Source: Microlunatus antarcticus
Lineage (GTDB): Bacteria > Actinomycetota > Actinomycetes > Propionibacteriales > Propionibacteriaceae
Direction of reading: 5' to 3'
NCBI RefSeq assembly: GCF_014193425.1
Contig: NZ_JACHZG010000001.1
Span: 2,046,001 to 2,110,000 of the forward strand
Length of the DNA stretch: 64,000 nt
The translations under genes and the position numbers were made by a program. Below are positions 6,719 to 59,004 of the stretch, one piece after another. The notes beneath the pieces are model-generated. The model was given only the letters and a program-made list of their open reading frames with translations. It searched no databases and was not told the DNA's origin. The stretch's first letter is position 1. The number at the start of each line of letters is the position of its first letter.

Positions 6719-7333
6719 GTGACGCAGCAGCCTCCAGCCCCGACCCCGGTGCCGTCCTCGCTCGTCGAGCGCAAGCGGCTGCTCGTCCGTCAGCGCATCG
6801 TCGAGGCCGCCGACGAGCTGTTCTCCGCCCGCGGGTTCGGCGACGTCTCGGTCACCGACATCGCGGCCCGGGCCGACGTGGGCCGCTCGACGTTCTTCCG
6901 CTACTTCGGGGACAAGACGGAGGTCGTGTTCGCGAAGGAGCAGGCCATGCTCGACGCGATCGCGGAGGCGGAGGGTGACCGCACCGCCGGTGCCGCACGA
7001 ACCGCTGCGGAGGCCGTCGCACAGCTGCGCCCGCTCGTGATCGACCTGTGCGACCGGGCGGCCGGCGACCAGGAAGCCTTCGAGCGCCACTACGAGCTGC
7101 TCGAGCAGCATCTCGAGCTCCGCGCCCGCGACGCGCTCAAGACCCAGCAGATCGCCGGCCGGCTCGGCGACGTCCTGCGCAGCCGCGGGACCGAGGAGAC
7201 CCTGGCCGTGTTCGCCGCCCAGATCGCCCTGGCCTGCTACCAGAGCGCCCGGCAACGGGCGAGCACAGCCGGGAGCCTGACCCGAGCCGCCGAGGACGCG
7301 TTCCAGGAGGCGCTCGGGCTGGGCCGCGGCTGA
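6719..7333 (+). CDS. TetR family transcriptional regulator
   Basis: A 204-residue repressor-type protein. The DNA-binding domain spans residues ~18-65: RIVEAADELFSARGFGDVSVTDIAARADVGRSTFFRYFGDKTEVV. The remainder is alpha-helical and ligand-binding. GTG at 6719 leaves a short proline-rich N-terminal tail. The gene lies 35 bases before a flavin-dependent oxidoreductase on the same strand and is divergent from the NTF2-like protein, so it probably controls both through the palindrome at 6652-6681. Confidence 0.88.
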   Translation: MTQQPPAPTPVPSSLVERKRLLVRQRIVEAADELFSARGFGDVSVTDIAARADVGRSTFFRYFGDKTEVVFAKEQAMLDAIAEAEGDRTAGAARTAAEAVAQLRPLVIDLCDRAAGDQEAFERHYELLEQHLELRARDALKTQQIAGRLGDVLRSRGTEETLAVFAAQIALACYQSARQRASTAGSLTRAAEDAFQEALGLGRG

Positions 7334-7368
7334 CCCGGCCGGTCAAGCTCCGTGAGAAGGTGACGTCC

Positions 7369-8397
7369 ATGCATATCGGCGTGGACAGCTTCGTCTCCGA
7401 GGTGACCGACCCGAAGACCGATCACGTCGTCGGGCCCGCCGAACGGATGGCGCACCTGCTCGAGGAGATCGCGCTGGCCGACCGCGTCGGCCTCTACTCC
7501 TTCGGCATCGGGGAGCACCACCGCTCCGAGTACTACGACTCGGCACCGCCGGTCATCCTCGCTGCCGCGGCCGCCCGTACGGAGCGCATCCGGCTCGGTA
7601 GCGCGGTCAAGGTGCTGAGCGCCGACGACCCGGTCCGCGTCTTCCAGCAGTTCGCGACGCTGGATCTGATCTCGAACGGTCGCATCGACCTCGTCGTCGG
7701 ACGCGGCTCGTTCACGGAGTCGTTCCCGCTGTTCGGCCTCGACCTCGCCGACTACGACGCGCTGTTCGAGGAGAAGCTCGACCTGCTCCTCCAGCTGCGC
7801 GACAACGTGGAGGTGACGTGGTCGGGCCGGTTCCGGCCGCCGCTGGTCAAGCAGGGCGTGTTTCCGCGCCCGGTGCAGGACCCGCTGCCGATCTGGGTCG
7901 GCGTCGGCGGGACGCCGCAGTCCTTCGCCCGCGCCGGGCTGCTCGGGCTGCCGTTGATGATCGCGATCATCGGCGGGGAGCCGCGCCAGTTCGCCCCGCT
8001 GGTCGACCTCTACCGCCGGGCCGGTGCCCACGCGGGCCACGCCCCGGACAAGCTGCAGGTCGGGCTGCACGTCTTCGGCTACGTGGGAGAGAGCACCCAG
8101 GCCGCAGCCGACACGATCTACCCCGGCTGGCACAAGATGTTCACCTCCGTGTCCCGTGAGCGGGGGTTCGCCCCGCCGAACCGACCGCAGTTCGACGCGA
8201 CCGCCGGCCCGAACGGCGCGTTCTTCATGGGCGACCCGCAGACCGTGGCGGACAAGATCCGGCGCGTCGCCGAGCAGCTCGGCGGGGTCGACCGCCTCTC
8301 GCTGCAGATGACGAACCCGCTCCTGGCCCACGACGACCTGCTGCGCGGCATCGAGCTGCTCGGCACCGAGGTCGCACCGCTCGTCGCCGACGTCTGA
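7369..8397 (+). CDS. LLM-class flavin-dependent oxidoreductase
   Basis: A 342-residue bacterial-luciferase-like monooxygenase with a TIM-barrel fold. Landmarks are FGIGEHHRSEY near the N-terminus, RTERIRLGSAVKVLSADDPVRVFQQFATLDLISNGR, which is the signature of the group, and PLPIWVGVGGTPQS later. Such enzymes use reduced FMN from a separate reductase to oxygenate small organics. The substrate is unknown. The gene follows its TetR regulator by 35 bases and probably forms one transcription unit with it. The ATG at 7369 is preceded by GAGAAGG. Confidence 0.92.
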   Translation: MHIGVDSFVSEVTDPKTDHVVGPAERMAHLLEEIALADRVGLYSFGIGEHHRSEYYDSAPPVILAAAAARTERIRLGSAVKVLSADDPVRVFQQFATLDLISNGRIDLVVGRGSFTESFPLFGLDLADYDALFEEKLDLLLQLRDNVEVTWSGRFRPPLVKQGVFPRPVQDPLPIWVGVGGTPQSFARAGLLGLPLMIAIIGGEPRQFAPLVDLYRRAGAHAGHAPDKLQVGLHVFGYVGESTQAAADTIYPGWHKMFTSVSRERGFAPPNRPQFDATAGPNGAFFMGDPQTVADKIRRVAEQLGGVDRLSLQMTNPLLAHDDLLRGIELLGTEVAPLVADV

Positions 8398-38818: not shown

Positions 38819-39700
38819 TCAGCCGGGGGGTGAGAACCCGTGGCGGCGGAGGGCGCGCTGACCGTCGGGTCCGACGAGGTGCTCGACGAGACTGACCGCG
38901 AGGTCGTGGTGAGGGGCGTCGGTCACGACAGCTGCCGCGTAGTGACCGGTCGGGTTGGCCGGTGCGGCCAAGGCGACCTCGGCGAGGGGGCGCCCGAGGT
39001 GGAGGTGGTGCAGCGCCTCCGTCTGCCAGACCACTGCGATGTCGGTGTCGTCGTCGAGCAGCCACCGCGGCCCTTGACGGTGGTGGATGGCGGTGAGCCG
39101 CACGTCGCCGCGTCGGACGGCCTCGTCGAGGACGGCGTCACGCAGGCCGGTGCCGCCGAGCGTCTCCAGCGCGGTGATGGCGAGCTGACCGATCCCTTCG
39201 GTCCTCGGATCGGGGAAGGCGACCCGCACGCCGGGGCGGGCGAGGTCGCGCCAGTCGGTGACGTCCTTGGGGTTGCCCTGCTGCACGAGCAGGGAGAGGC
39301 CGTTGCTGGCGTAGGGGCGGGCGACGTCGGTCAGCCCGTCGCTGTGCAGTTCGGCGAGCACCGCCGGGCTGGCGGCGATCACGTCGGCGGTGAACGGCAG
39401 CAGCAGCGTGCCCATCCGGAGGCTGCCGCGTCGGAGCTGCTGGACGAGGATGCCGGGCGGGAGCGTCTCGTAGAAGACCGTCGGGGTGGGGTCGCGTCCG
39501 GCGATGAAGCCGGCGACGAGGTCGGGCATGGCCATGAACTGGTTGCCGGCGACCAGCAGGCGCAGGTCGGCGTGGAGGGGGTCGCCGACCAGGTCCTCGA
39601 CGTGGTCGTGAGGTTCGACCTGGAACTCGACCGGCTCGGCGGACCGGTGCGTCGAGGCGGGCTCGTGGTCGGGGGCGGGCCGGTGTTCAGGGCCGGACAT
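38819..39700 (-). CDS. ModA-like substrate-binding protein without signal peptide
   Basis: A 293-residue protein of the type II periplasmic-binding fold. Characteristic pieces are LLVAGNQFMAMPDLVAGF, FYETLPPGILVQQLRRGSL, YASNGLSLLVQQGNPKDVTDWRDLARPGVRVAFPDPRTEGIGQLA and HYAAAVVTDAPHHDLAVSLVEHLVG, as in molybdate/tungstate binders. No signal peptide or lipobox is visible and no permease or ATPase lies near, so it probably works in the cytoplasm. It overlaps the DsrE gene by 14 bases and belongs to the same operon, downstream of a TGTACGTACA site. Start ATG 39700 (GTG 39715 possible). Confidence 0.75.
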   Translation of the reverse strand: MSGPEHRPAPDHEPASTHRSAEPVEFQVEPHDHVEDLVGDPLHADLRLLVAGNQFMAMPDLVAGFIAGRDPTPTVFYETLPPGILVQQLRRGSLRMGTLLLPFTADVIAASPAVLAELHSDGLTDVARPYASNGLSLLVQQGNPKDVTDWRDLARPGVRVAFPDPRTEGIGQLAITALETLGGTGLRDAVLDEAVRRGDVRLTAIHHRQGPRWLLDDDTDIAVVWQTEALHHLHLGRPLAEVALAAPANPTGHYAAAVVTDAPHHDLAVSLVEHLVGPDGQRALRRHGFSPPG

Positions 39701-40049
39701 AGGACCAGCCGTCACGCTGGCGGTGGATGAGCTGGACGATGCCGGCGGGCACGATGGTCACCCCGGCGGCGAGCTGGTCCTCGCCGACGTGCTCGCGGCG
39801 CATCGTGTTCGCGCACGCGTCGACCTGGACCCCGCGTTCGATCAGCGTCCGGAGCGCGGTCTCGTGCGGGGCGCCGGCGAGGACGGCCCGCAGGCCAGGT
39901 CCGTGGGTGACGAGCTCCACCACGGTGCCGTCCCCGAGGGCGTCGAGGACGTTCGCGACGTTGCGGAGCACCGACTCGTGCTTGGCGGGGTCACCCTCGT
40001 CGAGGTGGAAGACGACCCCCGGGGTCGCGTGGTGGGGTGCGCTGGTCAC
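39687..40049 (-). CDS. DsrE family sulfur-relay protein
   Basis: A 120-residue DsrE/DsrF-like protein. VVFHLDEGDPAKHESVLRNVANVLDAL matches the first strand and helix, VELVTHGPGLRAVLAG the second, and VDACANTMRREHV places the conserved sulfur-carrying cysteine in its usual C-x-N-T context. Such proteins accept persulfide sulfur from rhodaneses. GTG at 40049 has GAGGGA upstream. It is the first gene of an operon whose promoter region carries a TGTACGTACA site 80 bases upstream, tying it to the sulfur regulon. Confidence 0.86.
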   Translation of the reverse strand: MTSAPHHATPGVVFHLDEGDPAKHESVLRNVANVLDALGDGTVVELVTHGPGLRAVLAGAPHETALRTLIERGVQVDACANTMRREHVGEDQLAAGVTIVPAGIVQLIHRQRDGWSYVRP

Positions 40050-40128
40050 GATGGGTACTCCCTCAGTGGTGCTCGTCGGTCGAGGGCCACGAGTGCCGTC
40101 GAGTACGGTCCCTGCAGCCACGACCTAA

Positions 40129-40140
40129 ATGTACGTACAC
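40129..40140. promoter_or_regulatory. TGTACGTACA regulon site A
   Basis: ATGTACGTACAC, 11 of 12 positions symmetric, 80 bases upstream of the DsrE/ModA-like operon on the minus strand. One of four copies with a perfect 10-bp core. Probable target of the GntR regulator at 53581 (inferred). Confidence 0.75.
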
Positions 40141-40183: not shown

Positions 40184-40840
40184 TCAGGGGGACTGAGTGA
40201 TGACGCCGTCGGGTCCGACGACCTGGATCCGGCTGATGGACTGGGGGGTCACCGAGGTCGCGCCCGTGACCTGGACGTGCCCGTCGGCGGTCGTTCCCCA
40301 CGACGCGGCGCGTTCGTGACCGCCGGACCGGTCGGTGATCTCGAGGGTGAACGGTCCGGTCGCCGGCAGTCCTGTGGCCGTCAGCGTGACGGACGTCCCC
40401 CAGGGTCGTGGGTCGAGCAGGGCCGTGCCGGTTCCGGCCGCACCGCTGGTCGCGGGGCGTAGCTCGATGACGGCGGCAGTCGCCGTGGTGGCGGGTGGTC
40501 GCAGCAGGGGAGGGGTGACGACCAGTGCGGCGGCGAGGACGGCGGCCGCGACCACGCCGAGCAGGGTCCGGCGTCGCCGCCTCAGCCGTCGTGCCGTCAG
40601 CTGGGCGAGGAGGCGGTGCTGGCGCGCGTCGGCTGCTGCTGCCAGCTCGTCCGGGGGTTGCGGCACGGTCGGGGCGGCGCGCCGCAGCAGGCCGGGCAGC
40701 GAGGCGGACCGGCTGAGCTCGTCGCGGCACGAGGGGCAGTCGGGGAGGTGGGCCTCAAAGACGTCGCGGTCGGCAGGCTCCAGGCCGCCGAGCAGGTAGG
40801 CGCCGAGCAGGTGGCGGATCTCGCGGTGGTCCTGGCTCAT
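40184..40840 (-). CDS. RskA-like anti-sigma factor with zinc-finger domain
   Basis: A 218-residue membrane anti-sigma factor. The N-terminal zf-HC2/ZAS segment reads IRHLLGAYLLGGLEPADRDVFEAHLPDCPSCRDEL (H-x3-C-x2-C). A cluster of arginines precedes a single helix (LLGVVAAAVLAAALVVTPPLL). The outer ~110 residues are a beta-rich RskA-type domain (GTSVTLTATGLPATGPFTLEITDRSG). It would hold the sigma factor encoded just upstream until regulated proteolysis. The two genes overlap by ATGA (40837-40840). Confidence 0.88.
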   Translation of the reverse strand: MSQDHREIRHLLGAYLLGGLEPADRDVFEAHLPDCPSCRDELSRSASLPGLLRRAAPTVPQPPDELAAAADARQHRLLAQLTARRLRRRRRTLLGVVAAAVLAAALVVTPPLLRPPATTATAAVIELRPATSGAAGTGTALLDPRPWGTSVTLTATGLPATGPFTLEITDRSGGHERAASWGTTADGHVQVTGATSVTPQSISRIQVVGPDGVITQSP

Positions 40841-41349
40841 CGGAGCTCTCCCATCTCCTCGAGCGCGGTTCGCAGGGCGCGGACCGCGTAGTAGCTGCGT
40901 GACTTCACCGTCCCCGCCGGCACGCCGAGCCGCAGCGCTGCCTCGTTGACGGTGCAGCCGTCGTAGTACAGGGCCTGCACCACGGCGCGGTGGTCCTTGC
41001 TCAGCCGGGCGAGGGCCTCCGCCACGACCCAGCCTTGCATCGCGGTCGCCAGGTCTTCCGGTGCGGGCTGGTTGGACAGGACGGTCTCGTCGGTCACGAG
41101 GCGAGGTCGCCGGCGGTCCTTGCGCCACTGGTCGGTGATGACGTTGCGGGCGGTCGTCAAGAGGTAGGCCCGCGGGTTGGCGCGGGGGTCGAGCCGGTGG
41201 AGGTGCCGCCAGGCGCGGAGGAACGTCTCCTGCACGACGTCCTCGGCCTGGGCGACGTCGGTGGTGTAGCGGCGGGCGAAGGAGAGCAGCGCGTCGGCGT
41301 GGGCGTCGCACAGGGCGGCCATCAGCTGCTCGTCGACGTGCTCCGTCAC
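40837..41349 (-). CDS. ECF RNA polymerase sigma factor (SigK/SigL-like)
   Basis: A 170-residue sigma factor. Region 2 is DALLSFARRYTTDVAQAEDVVQETFLRAWRHLHRLD followed by the DNA-melting stretch PRAYLLTTARNVITDQWRK, and region 4 is LSKDHRAVVQALYYDGCTVNEAALRLGVPAGTVKSRSYYAVRALR. It is coupled to its membrane anti-sigma factor by a four-base overlap. A secreted EF-hand-like protein lies 26 bases upstream on the same strand and is probably cotranscribed. The inducing signal is unknown. Confidence 0.92.
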   Translation of the reverse strand: MTEHVDEQLMAALCDAHADALLSFARRYTTDVAQAEDVVQETFLRAWRHLHRLDPRANPRAYLLTTARNVITDQWRKDRRRPRLVTDETVLSNQPAPEDLATAMQGWVVAEALARLSKDHRAVVQALYYDGCTVNEAALRLGVPAGTVKSRSYYAVRALRTALEEMGELR

Positions 41350-42059: not shown

Positions 42060-42218
42060 GCGTGGGCTCCGTCGCGTGGTGGCCCGGGTCGCTGGTGGAT
42101 CCGGTTCCACCCTCGTGTACGTCGCCAGGGGCCCCGCGGTTCGGTCGATGCGCTGCCGGCGATCTCGGTGGCCCGCCTGAGGAACACCGAGGAGAAAGGG
42201 AGGTCACCCCTAAGCCGA

Positions 42219-45201: not shown

Positions 45202-46578
45202 TCAGGTGGTGGTGAGGTGGCGGTCGACGGCCGCGGAGTAGTTGTCGTTGATGTAGACGACGTCGCGGTCGGCCCGGTCGAGCAGGCTGGCGGCGATGCT
45301 GGCCCGGAACCCGCTGGCGCAGTGGACCCACAGCTGGGCCGCCGGGAGCTCGTCGAGGCGCTCGAGCAGTGCGTGCAACGGGACGTGCACCGACCCCTCG
45401 ATGAAGCCCCCGGCACGCTCGTCGTCACGACGGACGTCGAGGACGACCTGGTCGGTGACCTCGGGGTCGAGCAGCGTGGAGCCCGGCTGGAAGGCGGGGT
45501 CGGCGAAGGTGACCTCGGGGTAGTGGCTGTGCTCGTGGTCGCCGGCGATCTGGTCGAGCGAGCCGGTGGCGGCGCCGGTCAGGTCGTCGATGCCGATGCG
45601 GGAGAGCTGGCGCTGCGCGGCGGTGACGTCCTCGGGGGTGTCGCCGATCAGGGTCAACGAGCTGCCCCACGGCATCAGCCAGCCCAGGTAGGTCGAGAAC
45701 TGGGTGCCGAGGGCGATGCTCACGGTCCCGGCGAGGTGGTCGCTGGCGTACGCGGTGCGGTCGCGCAGGTCGACGACCCACTCACCGGCGTCGAGCTGCT
45801 TGCGCAGCTCGTCCGGGCCGAGGGTGCTGGGCGCGGCCAGGTTCGCCGGCCCGGGACCGGCGAGGTTCGCGGGCCCCATGTGGGCGTAGTAGGCCGGGTA
45901 GGCCGTCAGGTTGGCGATGAGCGTGTCGACGAAGGTCTCCTCGTCCGCGGTGGTCAGCGCGTCGTTGATGCGCTTCTCGTCGCCGATCGTCGAGGCGTCG
46001 CCACCGGTGGCGGAGCCGGCGGAGCAGAAGCTGCCGAAGCCGTGCGTGGGGTAGACGGGCGTCGCGTCGTCGAGCAGGTCGGCGAGCCGGTGCGCTGAGT
46101 GGAACTGGTGGTGGGTGAGCTCGCGGGTCAGGTGGTCGCCGAGCAGGTCGGTCCGACCCACGCTTCCGTAGAGCAGGGACCCGCCGGTGAAGACCGCGGT
46201 GCTGTCGTCGGTCGGGTCGGTGATGACGTAGGCGAGGTGGGACAGGGTGTGTCCTGGGGTCGCGACCGCGGTGATGGTCATCGGCCCGGCGGTGATCGTG
46301 TCGCCGTCGACGACGGCGGTCCGCTCGAAGGTGACCGGGTCGGCGGCGTTGACGACGTAGGCCGCGCCGGTGCGGCGGGCGAGCTCGAAGCCGCCGGTGA
46401 CGTAGTCGTTGTGGATGTGGGTCTCGAGGACCACGACGCAGCGCAGGTTCCGCTCGGCCAGCAGCGTCTCGACCCGGTCGATGTCGCGCTGCGGGTCGAC
46501 CACCACTGCCGTGTCGCCGGCGGCGATGAGGTAGCTGCGGTCACCGAGATCGGCGGTGGAGATGACGTCGACCTTCAC
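45202..46578 (-). CDS. MBL-fold persulfide-dioxygenase-like protein with two rhodanese domains
   Basis: A 458-residue fusion. Residues 1-~245 are a metallo-beta-lactamase domain of the ETHE1/persulfide dioxygenase branch: THIHNDYVTGG (His54, His56), ATPGHTLSH (His110) and YPTHGFGSFC. Residues ~255-340 form a first rhodanese domain lacking its cysteine, and ~370-458 a second with active Cys in VHCASGFRASIA. Persulfide dioxygenases oxidise glutathione- or mycothiol-type persulfide to sulfite. Oddity: the usual metal-binding Asp after the Thr-Gly of VFTGGSLLYG is replaced by Gly133, and DH by DY. It follows the SQR gene by 82 bases. Confidence 0.88.
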   Translation of the reverse strand: MKVDVISTADLGDRSYLIAAGDTAVVVDPQRDIDRVETLLAERNLRCVVVLETHIHNDYVTGGFELARRTGAAYVVNAADPVTFERTAVVDGDTITAGPMTITAVATPGHTLSHLAYVITDPTDDSTAVFTGGSLLYGSVGRTDLLGDHLTRELTHHQFHSAHRLADLLDDATPVYPTHGFGSFCSAGSATGGDASTIGDEKRINDALTTADEETFVDTLIANLTAYPAYYAHMGPANLAGPGPANLAAPSTLGPDELRKQLDAGEWVVDLRDRTAYASDHLAGTVSIALGTQFSTYLGWLMPWGSSLTLIGDTPEDVTAAQRQLSRIGIDDLTGAATGSLDQIAGDHEHSHYPEVTFADPAFQPGSTLLDPEVTDQVVLDVRRDDERAGGFIEGSVHVPLHALLERLDELPAAQLWVHCASGFRASIAASLLDRADRDVVYINDNYSAAVDRHLTTT

Positions 46579-46660: not shown

Positions 46661-47866
46661 TTAGGCGAGGCCTTTGAGGATGAAGTTCCAGTACAGGAAC
46701 GGCAGCCCGCGGCGCTTGAGGAACCACATGTCCTTGCGCTCGCGGGTGGTGTCGATGATGGGGAACGACGGCGCCGGCTGCATCGAGTAGTCGAACTCGG
46801 CGAGCAGCATCTTGTCCCGCGCCGTGGTCAGGGGGCAGGAGGCGTAGCCCTGGTAGCTGCCCGGCATGTCCTTGCCCTTCATCACCGCGTCGAGGTTCGC
46901 CACGACGACGGGCGCCTGCTTGCGGATGGCCGCGCCGGTCTTGGAGTTCGGCGTCGACCCGGCGTCGCCGAGGGCGAAGACGTTGGGGTAGCGGGTGTGC
47001 TGCATCGTGTTCTTGTCGACCTGGACGTAGCCGGCGGGGTTCTCGGGGTCGGCCAGCGAGGTCTGCTTCAGCCAGTCCGGCGCCGACATCGGCGGGACGG
47101 TGTGGAGCAGGTCGTAGTCCAGCGACTCCTTCGTCTGGTTGGCGTTGTCGGCGATGATCGCGCGACGGGAGTCGGGGTCGACCTCGACCATCTCGCTGCT
47201 CTTGCGGACGTTGATGCCGTAGTGCGCGACGACGCGCTCGAGCTCGTCGGAGAAGACCTTGACCCCGAACATGCCGGGGGTCGGCAGCACGAGGGTGATC
47301 TCGATGTCCTTGAGGACGCCCTGCTGGCGCCAGTAGTCGGCGGCGAGGTAGGCGATCTTCTGCGGTGCCCCCGCGCACTTGATGGGTCCGGACGGCTGGG
47401 TGAACAGCGCACGGCCGGACTTGAGGGCCTTGATGTTCTCCCACGTCTTCGGCGCGAGGTCGTACGTGTAGTTGCTGGACGCAGCCGGGCTAGTCATCGC
47501 GTCGGCCATGCCGGGCACGACGCCCCAGTCCAGCTGGGTGCCGGGGCACACGACGAGGTAGTCGTAGCCGACCCGGGCGCCGGACGCGGTGGTGACCTGC
47601 TGCTGGTCGGGGTCGATGTCGACCGCGCGGTCCTTCACCCAGCCGACGCCGCGCGGCATCACCGAGGCCTGCGTACGCCGTGATTCCGAGTCCGGGGCGC
47701 ACCCGCCGCCGACCAGCGTCCACAGCGGCTGGTAGTAGTGCGAGTCGCTCGGCTCGATGATCCCGATGTCGGTGACGCCCTCGCGCTGCAGACGTGCCGC
47801 GACCGAGATCCCGGCGTTCCCGCCCCCGACGATCAGAACCTCGTGGTGCATCGGTGCCTGGCTCAT
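46661..47866 (-). CDS. sqr: sulfide:quinone oxidoreductase
   Basis: A 401-residue flavoprotein of the SQR family. VLIVGGGNAGISVAARL binds FAD; conserved cysteines occur in the GGGC segment near residue 54, in GPIKCAGAPQKIAYLAADYW and in YASCPLTTARDKMLLAEFDY, matching the active-site set of type II SQR. The C-terminus (RERKDMWFLKRRGLPFLYWNFILKG) is amphipathic for membrane docking. SQR oxidises H2S to sulfane sulfur and passes electrons to quinone. ATG 47866. Two tandem regulon sites lie 91 and 113 bases upstream. It heads an operon with the persulfide-dioxygenase fusion. Confidence 0.93.
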   Translation of the reverse strand: MSQAPMHHEVLIVGGGNAGISVAARLQREGVTDIGIIEPSDSHYYQPLWTLVGGGCAPDSESRRTQASVMPRGVGWVKDRAVDIDPDQQQVTTASGARVGYDYLVVCPGTQLDWGVVPGMADAMTSPAASSNYTYDLAPKTWENIKALKSGRALFTQPSGPIKCAGAPQKIAYLAADYWRQQGVLKDIEITLVLPTPGMFGVKVFSDELERVVAHYGINVRKSSEMVEVDPDSRRAIIADNANQTKESLDYDLLHTVPPMSAPDWLKQTSLADPENPAGYVQVDKNTMQHTRYPNVFALGDAGSTPNSKTGAAIRKQAPVVVANLDAVMKGKDMPGSYQGYASCPLTTARDKMLLAEFDYSMQPAPSFPIIDTTRERKDMWFLKRRGLPFLYWNFILKGLA

Positions 47867-47956
47867 GCTGCTCACGTCCTCGTGCTCGATGGCTTGTCGA
47901 CCTGCGCGTCCTGCTGGTGAGCCCGCTCCGCGGGCGACGCGACGCACACAGTTGAA

Positions 47957-47968
47957 ATGTCCGTACAT
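47957..47968. promoter_or_regulatory. TGTACGTACA regulon site C1
   Basis: ATGTCCGTACAT, one mismatch from the 10-bp core. It is the nearer of two tandem sites upstream of the SQR operon, 91 bases from its start codon. Confidence 0.65.
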
Positions 47969-53559: not shown

Positions 53560-53571
53560 ATGTACGTACAT
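53560..53571. promoter_or_regulatory. TGTACGTACA regulon site E (perfect palindrome)
   Basis: ATGTACGTACAT, symmetric at all 12 positions, immediately before the GntR gene (10 to 40 bases from its possible start codons). Its overlap with the likely transcription start fits negative autoregulation by the encoded GntR protein. Confidence 0.8.
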
Positions 53572-53580
53572 CATGGAGGT

Positions 53581-54453
53581 GTGCCAGCAGACAGTGCAGT
53601 GACCACGTCGGAGCCCGGTGCCGCTCAGCCTCCTCGGTTGGAGCGGACGTCGAGCCGGCCGCTGTGGGCGCAGCTCCAGGACGACATCAGCGCCCGCATC
53701 GACGCCCACGAGTACGACGACGCGTTCCCCGGCGAGCATGCGCTGGCCGAGGAGTACCAGGTCAGCCGCCAGACCGTGCGTCTGGCGTTGCGCAGCCTGC
53801 GCGAGGCCGGAGTGCTGAGCGCGGAGAAGGGCAAGCCGCCGCAGGTGGTGCACACCATCTCCCAGCCGATGGGCACCCTGTACAGCCTGTTCGCGTCGGT
53901 CGAGGCCTCGGGACGGACCCAGCGCAGCGTGGTCCTTGCCCTGGACGAACGCACCGACGCGGTCGCGGCCACCCACCTCGGGCTCCCGGCGACGGAGCCT
54001 CTCGTCTTTCTGGAGCGGCTGCGCCTGGCCGACGACGAACCCCTGGCCGTCGACCAGGTCTGGCTGCCGGCCCGACTGGCCCGCCCGCTGCTCGACGTGG
54101 ACTTCACCCACACCGCCCTCTACGCCGAGATGTTCCGACGACTCGGCCTACACCTGGGCGGGGGGCAGGAGGAGATCGTCGCCGTCACCCTGAACCGCAC
54201 CGAGGCCGCACGGCTGGACACACGGATCGGCGCAGCCGCGTTCGCCCTGTCCCGGCTCGGCTGCCACCGCGGCGCCCCGCTCGAGTGGCGTCACACCGTG
54301 ATCCGCGGGGACCGCTTCCGTCTCCTCAGCCGCTTCAGTCCCGGGTCGGGCTACACCTTGCACCTCGGCACCCAGCCGAGCTCCTCGGCTGCCGGCGCCG
54401 ACGCCCCTGGCCAGCCCGGCACCAACCAGTTCTGTGGATCGGAGAACCCATGA
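53581..54453 (+). CDS. GntR family regulator with UTRA effector domain, candidate sulfur-island repressor
   Basis: About 290 residues. The N-terminal winged helix has RPLWAQLQDDISARIDAHEYDDAFPGEHALAEEYQVSRQTVRLALRSLREAGVLSAEKGKPPQVV, the HutC/UTRA subfamily pattern. A UTRA ligand domain follows (LVFLERLRLADDEPLAVDQVWLPARL...HTALYAEMFRRLGLHLGGGQEEI). Only two cysteines occur, in SRLGCHRG and near the end in NQFCGSE. The start is uncertain: GTG 53581, GTG 53599 or a leaderless ATG 53560 inside the operator. It forms an operon with a rhodanese and a TauE exporter through ATGA and GTGA overlaps. It is the only regulator gene inside the island besides the ECF system. Confidence 0.88.
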   Translation: MPADSAVTTSEPGAAQPPRLERTSSRPLWAQLQDDISARIDAHEYDDAFPGEHALAEEYQVSRQTVRLALRSLREAGVLSAEKGKPPQVVHTISQPMGTLYSLFASVEASGRTQRSVVLALDERTDAVAATHLGLPATEPLVFLERLRLADDEPLAVDQVWLPARLARPLLDVDFTHTALYAEMFRRLGLHLGGGQEEIVAVTLNRTEAARLDTRIGAAAFALSRLGCHRGAPLEWRHTVIRGDRFRLLSRFSPGSGYTLHLGTQPSSSAAGADAPGQPGTNQFCGSENP

Positions 54454-57909: not shown

Positions 57910-59004
57910 ATGAGCTGGGGCAAGCGGGCGGAGATGATCGTCCACGAGCAGGACCCGTACAACGCCGAGCCGCCGCCCGGCTTGCTCGCCGACGCCTTCA
58001 TCACCCCGACCGACGTCTTCTACAGCCGCAACCACGGACCAATCCCCGACCTCGACCCCGAGACCTGGTCGCTGCGCGTCGACGGCCAGGTGTCGCGGCC
58101 GCTCACCTTGACCCTCGACCAGCTGCAGGCCTTCGAGCACGTGACCCTGAGCGCGACCCTGCAGTGCGCCGGCAACCGACGCGCCGACCTCATCCGCGTC
58201 CGCGACATCCCCGGCGAGCACCCCTGGGGACGCGCCGCGACCTCGACCGCGACGTGGACCGGCGTGCGGCTGCGTGACGTCCTCGACGCCGCCGGGCTCG
58301 ACCCGACCCTGACCGACGGGCACGTGGCGTTCGACGCACCCGACGTCTCTCCGATCGCCGACCCGCCCCAGCCGTACGGCGGCTCGGTGCCGCTGACGAA
58401 GGCACGAGGTCCTGAGGTGCTGCTGGCCTGGGCGATGAACGGCGAACCCCTCACCCAGGTCCACGGCGCCCCGGTGCGTGTCGTGGTGCCCGGCTACATC
58501 GGCGCGCGCAGCGTCAAGTGGGTCCAGCACGTCACCGTCCAGCCCGGACCGTCCGACAACTACTTCCAAGCCACCGCGTACCGGATCGTGCCGCCCGACG
58601 CCGACCCCAAGCACGCCGGCCCCGCCGACGGCATCTCGCTCGGCCCCGTCCCCGTGAACGCCGCGATCCTCACACCCGCCGACAGCAGCCACCCACCTGC
58701 CGGTCGCACCCACATCAGCGGATACGCCTACGCCGGCGGCGACCGCACCGTCGCCCGGGTCGACGTCTCCGCCGACGACGGCGCCACCTGGACCCAGGCC
58801 GAGCTCACCCACTCCGACGACCGCTGGACCTGGACCACGTGGACCCTCGACCTCGACCTCGACCTCGAGCCGGGCCGACACGTCCTCGCCGTGCGGGCCT
58901 GGGACAACACCGGCGCCCAACAGCCGCAGTCACCCGAAGCGGTGTGGAACCCGAAGGGTTACGCGAACACCTCGTGGGACCGCCTGCAGCTCGACGTCGT
59001 CTGA
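57910..59004 (+). CDS. sulfite oxidase (molybdopterin enzyme)
   Basis: A 364-residue protein with both sulfite oxidase domains. The molybdopterin domain includes FYSRNHGPIPDLDPETW, LTLDQLQAF and Cys86 in LQCAGNRR, the molybdenum ligand, then GYIGARSVKWVQHV. The Mo-co dimerisation domain starts near residue 240 (GPVPVNAAILTPAD...VDVSADDGATW). No signal peptide, so it acts in the cytoplasm, turning sulfite into sulfate. ATG at 57910 with GGAAGGAGC upstream. Inside it a six-base repeat (CTCGAC, 58846-58869) encodes a Leu/Asp run. Confidence 0.92.
   Translation: MSWGKRAEMIVHEQDPYNAEPPPGLLADAFITPTDVFYSRNHGPIPDLDPETWSLRVDGQVSRPLTLTLDQLQAFEHVTLSATLQCAGNRRADLIRVRDIPGEHPWGRAATSTATWTGVRLRDVLDAAGLDPTLTDGHVAFDAPDVSPIADPPQPYGGSVPLTKARGPEVLLAWAMNGEPLTQVHGAPVRVVVPGYIGARSVKWVQHVTVQPGPSDNYFQATAYRIVPPDADPKHAGPADGISLGPVPVNAAILTPADSSHPPAGRTHISGYAYAGGDRTVARVDVSADDGATWTQAELTHSDDRWTWTTWTLDLDLDLEPGRHVLAVRAWDNTGAQQPQSPEAVWNPKGYANTSWDRLQLDVV

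Follow-up and report, generated by a model that had tools for sequence, protein, structure and literature searches.

A cytoplasmic solute-binding protein gene overlapping a DsrE-family gene in a sulfur island of Microlunatus antarcticus

The window, a stretch of 64,000 nucleotides from the genome of Microlunatus antarcticus, carries on its minus strand a gene for a DsrE/DsrF-family protein (GTG 40049 to 39687) followed by a gene for a solute-binding protein (SBP; ATG 39700 to 38819), downstream of which lies a convergent DUF1264 gene (Table 1). By profile the SBP is of the ModA/sulfate type and lies above the gathering cut-off of Pfam SBP_bac_11 (E=5e-36, 125 bits; cut-off 25), and the DsrE protein is likewise above that of Pfam DsrE (PF02635; 3.6e-7, 30.8 bits; cut-off 22.7). 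Its Cys79 is kept in all eight rows of the DsrE alignment, and its sequence relatives with a solved structure include MTH1491 (1l1s) and ST0148 (2pd2). The start given to the SBP in the open reading frame list, GTG 39715, results in an overlap of 29 bases with the DsrE gene; with ATG 39700 as the start, the bases shared with the DsrE stop are ATGTCCGGCCCTGA, exactly the 14 that the first-pass annotation had reported. A GAGGGAG motif is located upstream of the DsrE GTG, and the two genes are probably co-translated from one operon of the sulfide-oxidation regulon. The distant actinobacterium G239 has an identical 14-base DsrE/SBP overlap in the same place, ATGTCCGCCCCTAG, a coincidence that is partly accounted for by the conserved W-x-Y-V-R-P at the C-terminus of DsrE.

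Table 1. Features of the DsrE-SBP locus and the surrounding sulfur island (window coordinates)
Feature	Position	Strand	Remarks
Cytoplasmic SBP	38819..39700	-	293 aa from ATG 39700; alternative start GTG 39715
DsrE/DsrF-family protein	39687..40049	-	120 aa, GTG start, single conserved Cys79, no export signal
Palindrome ATGTACGTACAC	40128..40139	.	promoter region of the DsrE-SBP operon
Rhodanese with YgaP-like membrane segment	44123..44722	-	island context
Metallo-beta-lactamase/rhodanese fusion, persulfide-dioxygenase type	45202..46578	-	island context
Sulfide:quinone reductase-like flavoprotein	46661..47968	-	island context
GntR-UTRA regulator	53560..54453	+	likely reader of the palindrome
Molybdopterin sulfite-oxidase-type enzyme	57910..59004	+	no N-terminal export signal by eye

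SBPs of this kind are normally exported and capture nutrients. The open SBP frame of the window spans 312 codons as against 298 from the GTG, and the 14 codons upstream of the GTG contain, by reading frame and hydropathy, no hydrophobic stretch and nothing signal-like; since the frame reaches just 14 codons beyond the GTG, a hidden signal peptide is excluded. No ABC ATPase was found when the 64-kb window was searched in six frames for Walker-A/LSGGQ motifs, and no permease was seen in the open reading frames that flank the SBP. Separate ModA and sulfate SBPs are encoded beside permeases elsewhere in the genome, the ModA with a lipobox and an adjoining permease. The first-pass annotation had described a cytoplasmic binding protein with neither signal peptide nor ABC partners, paired with a DsrE-type sulfur carrier, which an upstream start supplying a signal peptide would have contradicted; no such start exists, and at the sequence level the gene order, the overlap, the lack of export signals on both proteins and the lack of ABC partners are established.

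The palindrome in front of the operon corresponds to the regulon site that had been placed above the gene pair and is restricted to the island. Its 10-base core recurs at 42218, 52043 and 53559, and AWGTACGTACWY occurs at four places in the whole 4.37-Mb genome, all within the sulfur island of the window, as against none for a control pattern; the 12-base form likewise has only four genomic places, all in the island. The copies of ATGTACGTACAY at 40128, 42218, 52043 and 53559 are probable operators of the GntR-UTRA regulator, which is a likely candidate for their reader because one copy overlaps the start of its own gene and because GntR homologues are found in other DsrE loci (G044, G239 with two, and Arthrobacter D5-1). 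The palindrome is absent from the four stretches of other loci that were scanned for it (L127, L080, L019 and L018). Besides the enzymes in Table 1 the island contains rhodaneses, oxidase genes, CcdA/DsbA and DUF202, and the sulfite-oxidase-type molybdoenzyme is probably cytosolic as it starts without a Tat or Sec signal. Genes for an ECF sigma factor and a zf-HC2 anti-sigma factor (40184-41349) are situated directly upstream of the DsrE-SBP operon. DsrE islands that have no SBP occur in G044, where the gene order is the same, and on plasmids of Arthrobacter D5-1 and Rhodococcus antarcticus.

The SBP family is thinly and unevenly spread. It is found in 3/396 genomes of an Actinomycetota sample that includes M. 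antarcticus, one of the three being represented by contig-end fragments, in 1/66 of the class of G239, in 29/198 Nitrospirota (the phylum of L004) and in 20/247 of the phylum of L006, a Desulfobacterales MAG. Among plasmids 50 records matched, of which 22 cover at least 80% of the query; carriers include Hymenobacter, Burkholderia, Paraburkholderia, Bosea, Methylobacterium, Komagataeibacter, Acetobacter, Bradyrhizobium and Gluconobacter. The annotated genes around the SBP at the ten plasmid loci opened vary and include those for DoxD, Blh, YeiH-type exporters, cbb3-type oxidases, c-type cytochromes, a molybdopterin oxidoreductase or FAD/NAD(P)-binding oxidoreductases, L010 being unannotated. 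The viral contigs scanned for additional family sequences yielded none. The Anaerolineae hit L005, which by eye is a typical sulfate-type SBP with permease genes and an ATPase gene next to it, serves as outgroup only. A combination of such a protein with DsrE had been called unusual, which is true for the genus (0/56 other relatives of the window genome have the SBP) and does not hold in general, since the pair is conserved, mostly in an exported form, and a search in other genomes brings the number of paired loci to 23 including the window.

Judged by open frames and hydropathy rather than SignalP, the 63 family loci divide into 29 exported and 34 signal-less SBPs, the latter including one ambiguous case (L090) which has a hydrophobic stretch ahead of the core and is counted as cytoplasmic. 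A DsrE-fold gene lies near 20/29 exported SBPs, directly upstream in 18 and one gene away in two, where the partners are weak (27-32 bits); none was found nearby for the other nine, and some loci are at contig ends. For the signal-less SBPs a DsrE gene is directly upstream in three of the 34, namely in the window, in G239 and, with a short gap, in G571. No DsrE was found near the remaining 31, which implies that the partnership with DsrE is not obligatory and is the strongest counter-evidence to such an obligation. Where a partner exists its export state is that of the SBP in 23/23 pairs, which are phylogenetically non-independent and include one, L015, whose partner was identified by Pfam; partners of exported SBPs carry Tat or Sec signals and those of cytoplasmic SBPs none. 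The L015 gene at 6877-7647, tried as a DsrE, is a second SBP and was excluded from the DsrE alignment. ABC ATPase motifs are present in only 2/48 other loci scanned.

A tree of 59 of the 63 loci, which leaves out L011 (split frame), L050 and L082 (contig ends) and L116 (weak, 134 bits) and does not itself give a root position, sets the exported rows apart by a single branch (support 92/95; recovered in 95% of the bootstrap trees), and the cytoplasmic rows, which extend over several phyla, occupy the rest, the cytoplasmic label changing 2 times as against a mean of 20.9 after shuffling. The Nitrospirota rows include near-copies, and L036 and L060 are the same sequence from two places in G518. 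The window row groups with G239 (83/97) on a long branch (2.04) in what is a rough tree, with an unsettled bootstrap and long-branch warnings on this very row. A large clade of cytosolic orphans (L051-L059 and L063-L078) from Nitrospirota and the phylum of L006 has the same pocket; no DsrE was found beside its members, conserved sulfur neighbours are absent and the genes are set among housekeeping genes. The orphan cytoplasmic proteins mostly begin with a sequence like IPxNRxDDLHN.

The members share a pocket signature, GN58, ETxPPG83-88, E173, T208-HHR211-213, W230 and E233 in the numbering of the 298-aa open reading frame. Twenty residues, D41, G57, N58, P86, P87, G88, Q93, D111, N138, N148, P168, E173, G188, T208, H211, H212, R213, W230, E233 and G293, are invariant in 59/59 sequences from both compartments, which suggests that exported and cytoplasmic SBPs probably bind the same ligand. 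In a profile alignment several of them fall in the anion-holding loops of 1sbp and ModA, using what we take to be the ligand residues of these two proteins; W230 aligns with a Trp of 1sbp, and E173 and HHR stand in place of 1sbp residues, so that the ligand is probably neither molybdate nor sulfate. The window SBP shares a superfamily with ModA by sequence profile and, by profile, has sulfate/thiosulfate SBPs (the SubI, Sbp and CysP kind; 6ddn, 1sbp) among its best solved relatives. Unlike ModA it scores 23.7 bits against a TIGR01256 cut-off of 62.5, has other ligand loops and lacks both a signal and ModBC, and unlike the sulfate/thiosulfate SBPs (CysP, Sbp; 35.0-39.7 bits against NCBIfam cut-offs of 155.5-308) it has HHR and Glu173 in the pocket and no signal or ABC partner. 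An AlphaFold2 model from an alignment of the window, L004 and L006 SBPs reached a pLDDT of 36 and is unusable.

The exported form of the pair is already present in the literature. In Acidithiobacillus ferrooxidans AFE_0042 (Tat), AFE_0043 (SBP) and AFE_0044 (doxDA) are up on sulfur (PMC2754497), a second copy of the cluster exists and Gluconobacter oxydans has a similar arrangement (PMC2621215, PMC2754497), as does Sulfobacillus (PMC5114278). PMC6335251 reports that the thiosulfate dehydrogenase which Kikumoto et al. 2013 identified is AFE_0042. The accounts of the clusters label the neighbouring SBP as such or as a 'sulfate/molybdate binding protein' and, in their passages on it, give no function (PMC2621215, PMC2754497, PMC5114278, PMC6335251). 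The plasmid locus of G. oxydans, L017, encodes the Tat protein, the SBP and DoxD.

At ten loci (L013, L016, L017 and L032-L038) the Tat-exported protein upstream of the exported SBP, of thiosulfate-dehydrogenase type by synteny, is remotely homologous to DsrE and contains an insertion. It has no Pfam DsrE match; hhalign against the small DsrE proteins gives 92.8%, and a second profile comparison (14 and 10 sequences) gives 93.6% with a score of 49 over 60 aligned columns, the conserved Cys among them, whereas none of 30 column-shuffled controls scored above 19.9. By these comparisons the small DsrE proteins and the Tat-exported partner are homologues. A DsrE fold is thereby suggested for the thiosulfate dehydrogenase of the A. 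ferrooxidans type, AFE_0042 being equated with the Tat family by synteny and by the parallel published for G. oxydans rather than by sequence; the enzyme would then gain a fold and a candidate catalytic cysteine.

The window pair is real, conserved and uncharacterised, and represents a cytoplasmic version of two genes whose periplasmic form has been published. Like the tsd-sbp-doxDA cluster of A. ferrooxidans (AFE_0042-0050), G. oxydans and Sulfobacillus acidophilus it consists of a DsrE-fold gene and, immediately downstream, an SBP gene with the pocket signature, in a sulfur-oxidation context, and the passages that describe these clusters name no ABC genes. Unlike in the cluster, where both proteins are exported and accompanied by doxDA, neither protein of the window carries a Tat or Sec signal, the DsrE is of the short form and DoxD (PF04173) has no match in the M. 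antarcticus genome, which is 95% complete. No description of a cytosolic DsrE-SBP pair was found in the literature on signal-less SBPs in sulfur metabolism, subscription journals being mostly outside the search. Three points are new: the pair has a cytosolic form in which the localisation of the two proteins matches, one pocket signature is common to the family, and the partner of thiosulfate-dehydrogenase type is homologous to DsrE; the pocket signature shared with exported homologues and the agreement in export state between SBP and partner are both read directly from the genes.

The explanation that we tentatively favour, and would not yet call probable, is that the pair forms a cytosolic two-protein module, the inside-the-cell form of the TSD-SBP thiosulfate module. 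The SBP would bind a small compound of sulfur, with thiosulfate the likeliest (tetrathionate or sulfite being alternatives), and hold or present it to the conserved DsrE cysteine, which may carry it as Cys-bound sulfur or as a thiosulfonate group; sulfite released in the cytosol could in turn supply the island's own signal-less sulfite oxidase. The pair looks like an intracellular version since the exported one occurs in sulfur oxidisers and a relative of the partner is reported to oxidise thiosulfate, and a cytosolic module fits an island whose sulfur enzymes, sulfite oxidase included, have no export signal by eye. Of the ligands suggested in the first-pass annotation, sulfite or thiosulfate fits better than the others, given that the exported pair belongs to clusters for thiosulfate oxidation, and thiosulfate itself is put forward from this context. 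A precedent is the DsrE3A-TusA relay of Metallosphaera cuprina, in which a cytosolic DsrE-family protein handles a thiosulfate group on Cys; DsrE3A forms a Cys-S-thiosulfonate with tetrathionate and hands the group on (PMC4175335), although its partner is TusA and that of the window DsrE is an SBP. Several points speak against the cytosolic module: most cytosolic SBPs are orphans with no DsrE found nearby, DoxD is lacking, some actinobacterial DsrE islands have no SBP, DsrE3A did not react with thiosulfate itself (PMC4175335), and the pocket has conserved Glu and His next to Arg, which is unusual for an oxyanion site. A direct role in sulfur transfer becomes testable with two small soluble proteins.

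A bolder version of the cytosolic module, which is doubtful, holds that the SBP left transport and became a subunit of a DsrE-type thiosulfate-handling enzyme, in which the SBP would clamp thiosulfate or tetrathionate and the DsrE cysteine take over. The same two-part enzyme would exist in two compartments, its parts having moved together, and a third cytosolic branch in Nitrospirota and the phylum of L006 would use the same ligand without DsrE.

The SBP might instead sense or buffer a ligand in the cytosol, be it sulfite, thiosulfate or a different metabolite of the island, and take no part in the chemistry, with DsrE merely co-regulated. The lack of a nearby ABC transporter, the generic ligand-binding nature of the fold, the orphan clade and the DsrE islands without an SBP in G044, Arthrobacter D5-1 and Rhodococcus antarcticus are all in its favour, yet the matched export states in 23/23 pairs and the overlap of the frames in both the window and the distant G239 argue for a shared SBP-DsrE complex and leave it rather unlikely. 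Still less likely is an SBP-fold enzyme, possibly metal-dependent and with or without DsrE, in which HHR, Glu and Trp would constitute the active site. The unusually strict conservation of two His, Arg, Glu residues and Trp across both compartments is consistent with this, and precedents exist in cyclohexadienyl dehydratase, represented among the solved profile relatives by 5jos, and in MqnA/MqnD; however, no activity is known, the window protein has no Cys and the model is too poor to show whether the residues come together. The earlier proposal of a molybdate binder serving the cytosolic sulfite oxidase draws on the inclusion of ModA in the SBP_bac_11 superfamily and on the molybdopterin enzyme in the island, and was rejected as very improbable on the low ModA score and the separate lipobox ModA beside a permease, the pocket being unlike that of ModA and the family clustering with thiosulfate genes. 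Least credible is the remnant of an ABC importer that recently lost its signal peptide, for which the long window branch could be cited and which was rejected on the tree, with its split between exported and cytoplasmic rows and few label changes, and on the intact pocket and the rarity of ABC ATPase motifs; an importer role is very unlikely for a cytosolic SBP that keeps its DsrE-fold partner and an identical pocket.

Two further observations concern individual loci. On Spirosoma linguale pSLIN02 (L011, 5932-6857) the SBP frame is broken into two overlapping frames and is unannotated. Near the G239 pair lie a gene that by eye is SulP-like and one of the sodium:sulfate symporter family (L080, 2793-4436 and 16162-17481), and a gene of the latter family is found beside the cytosolic SBP of G486 (L093, 9415-10965).
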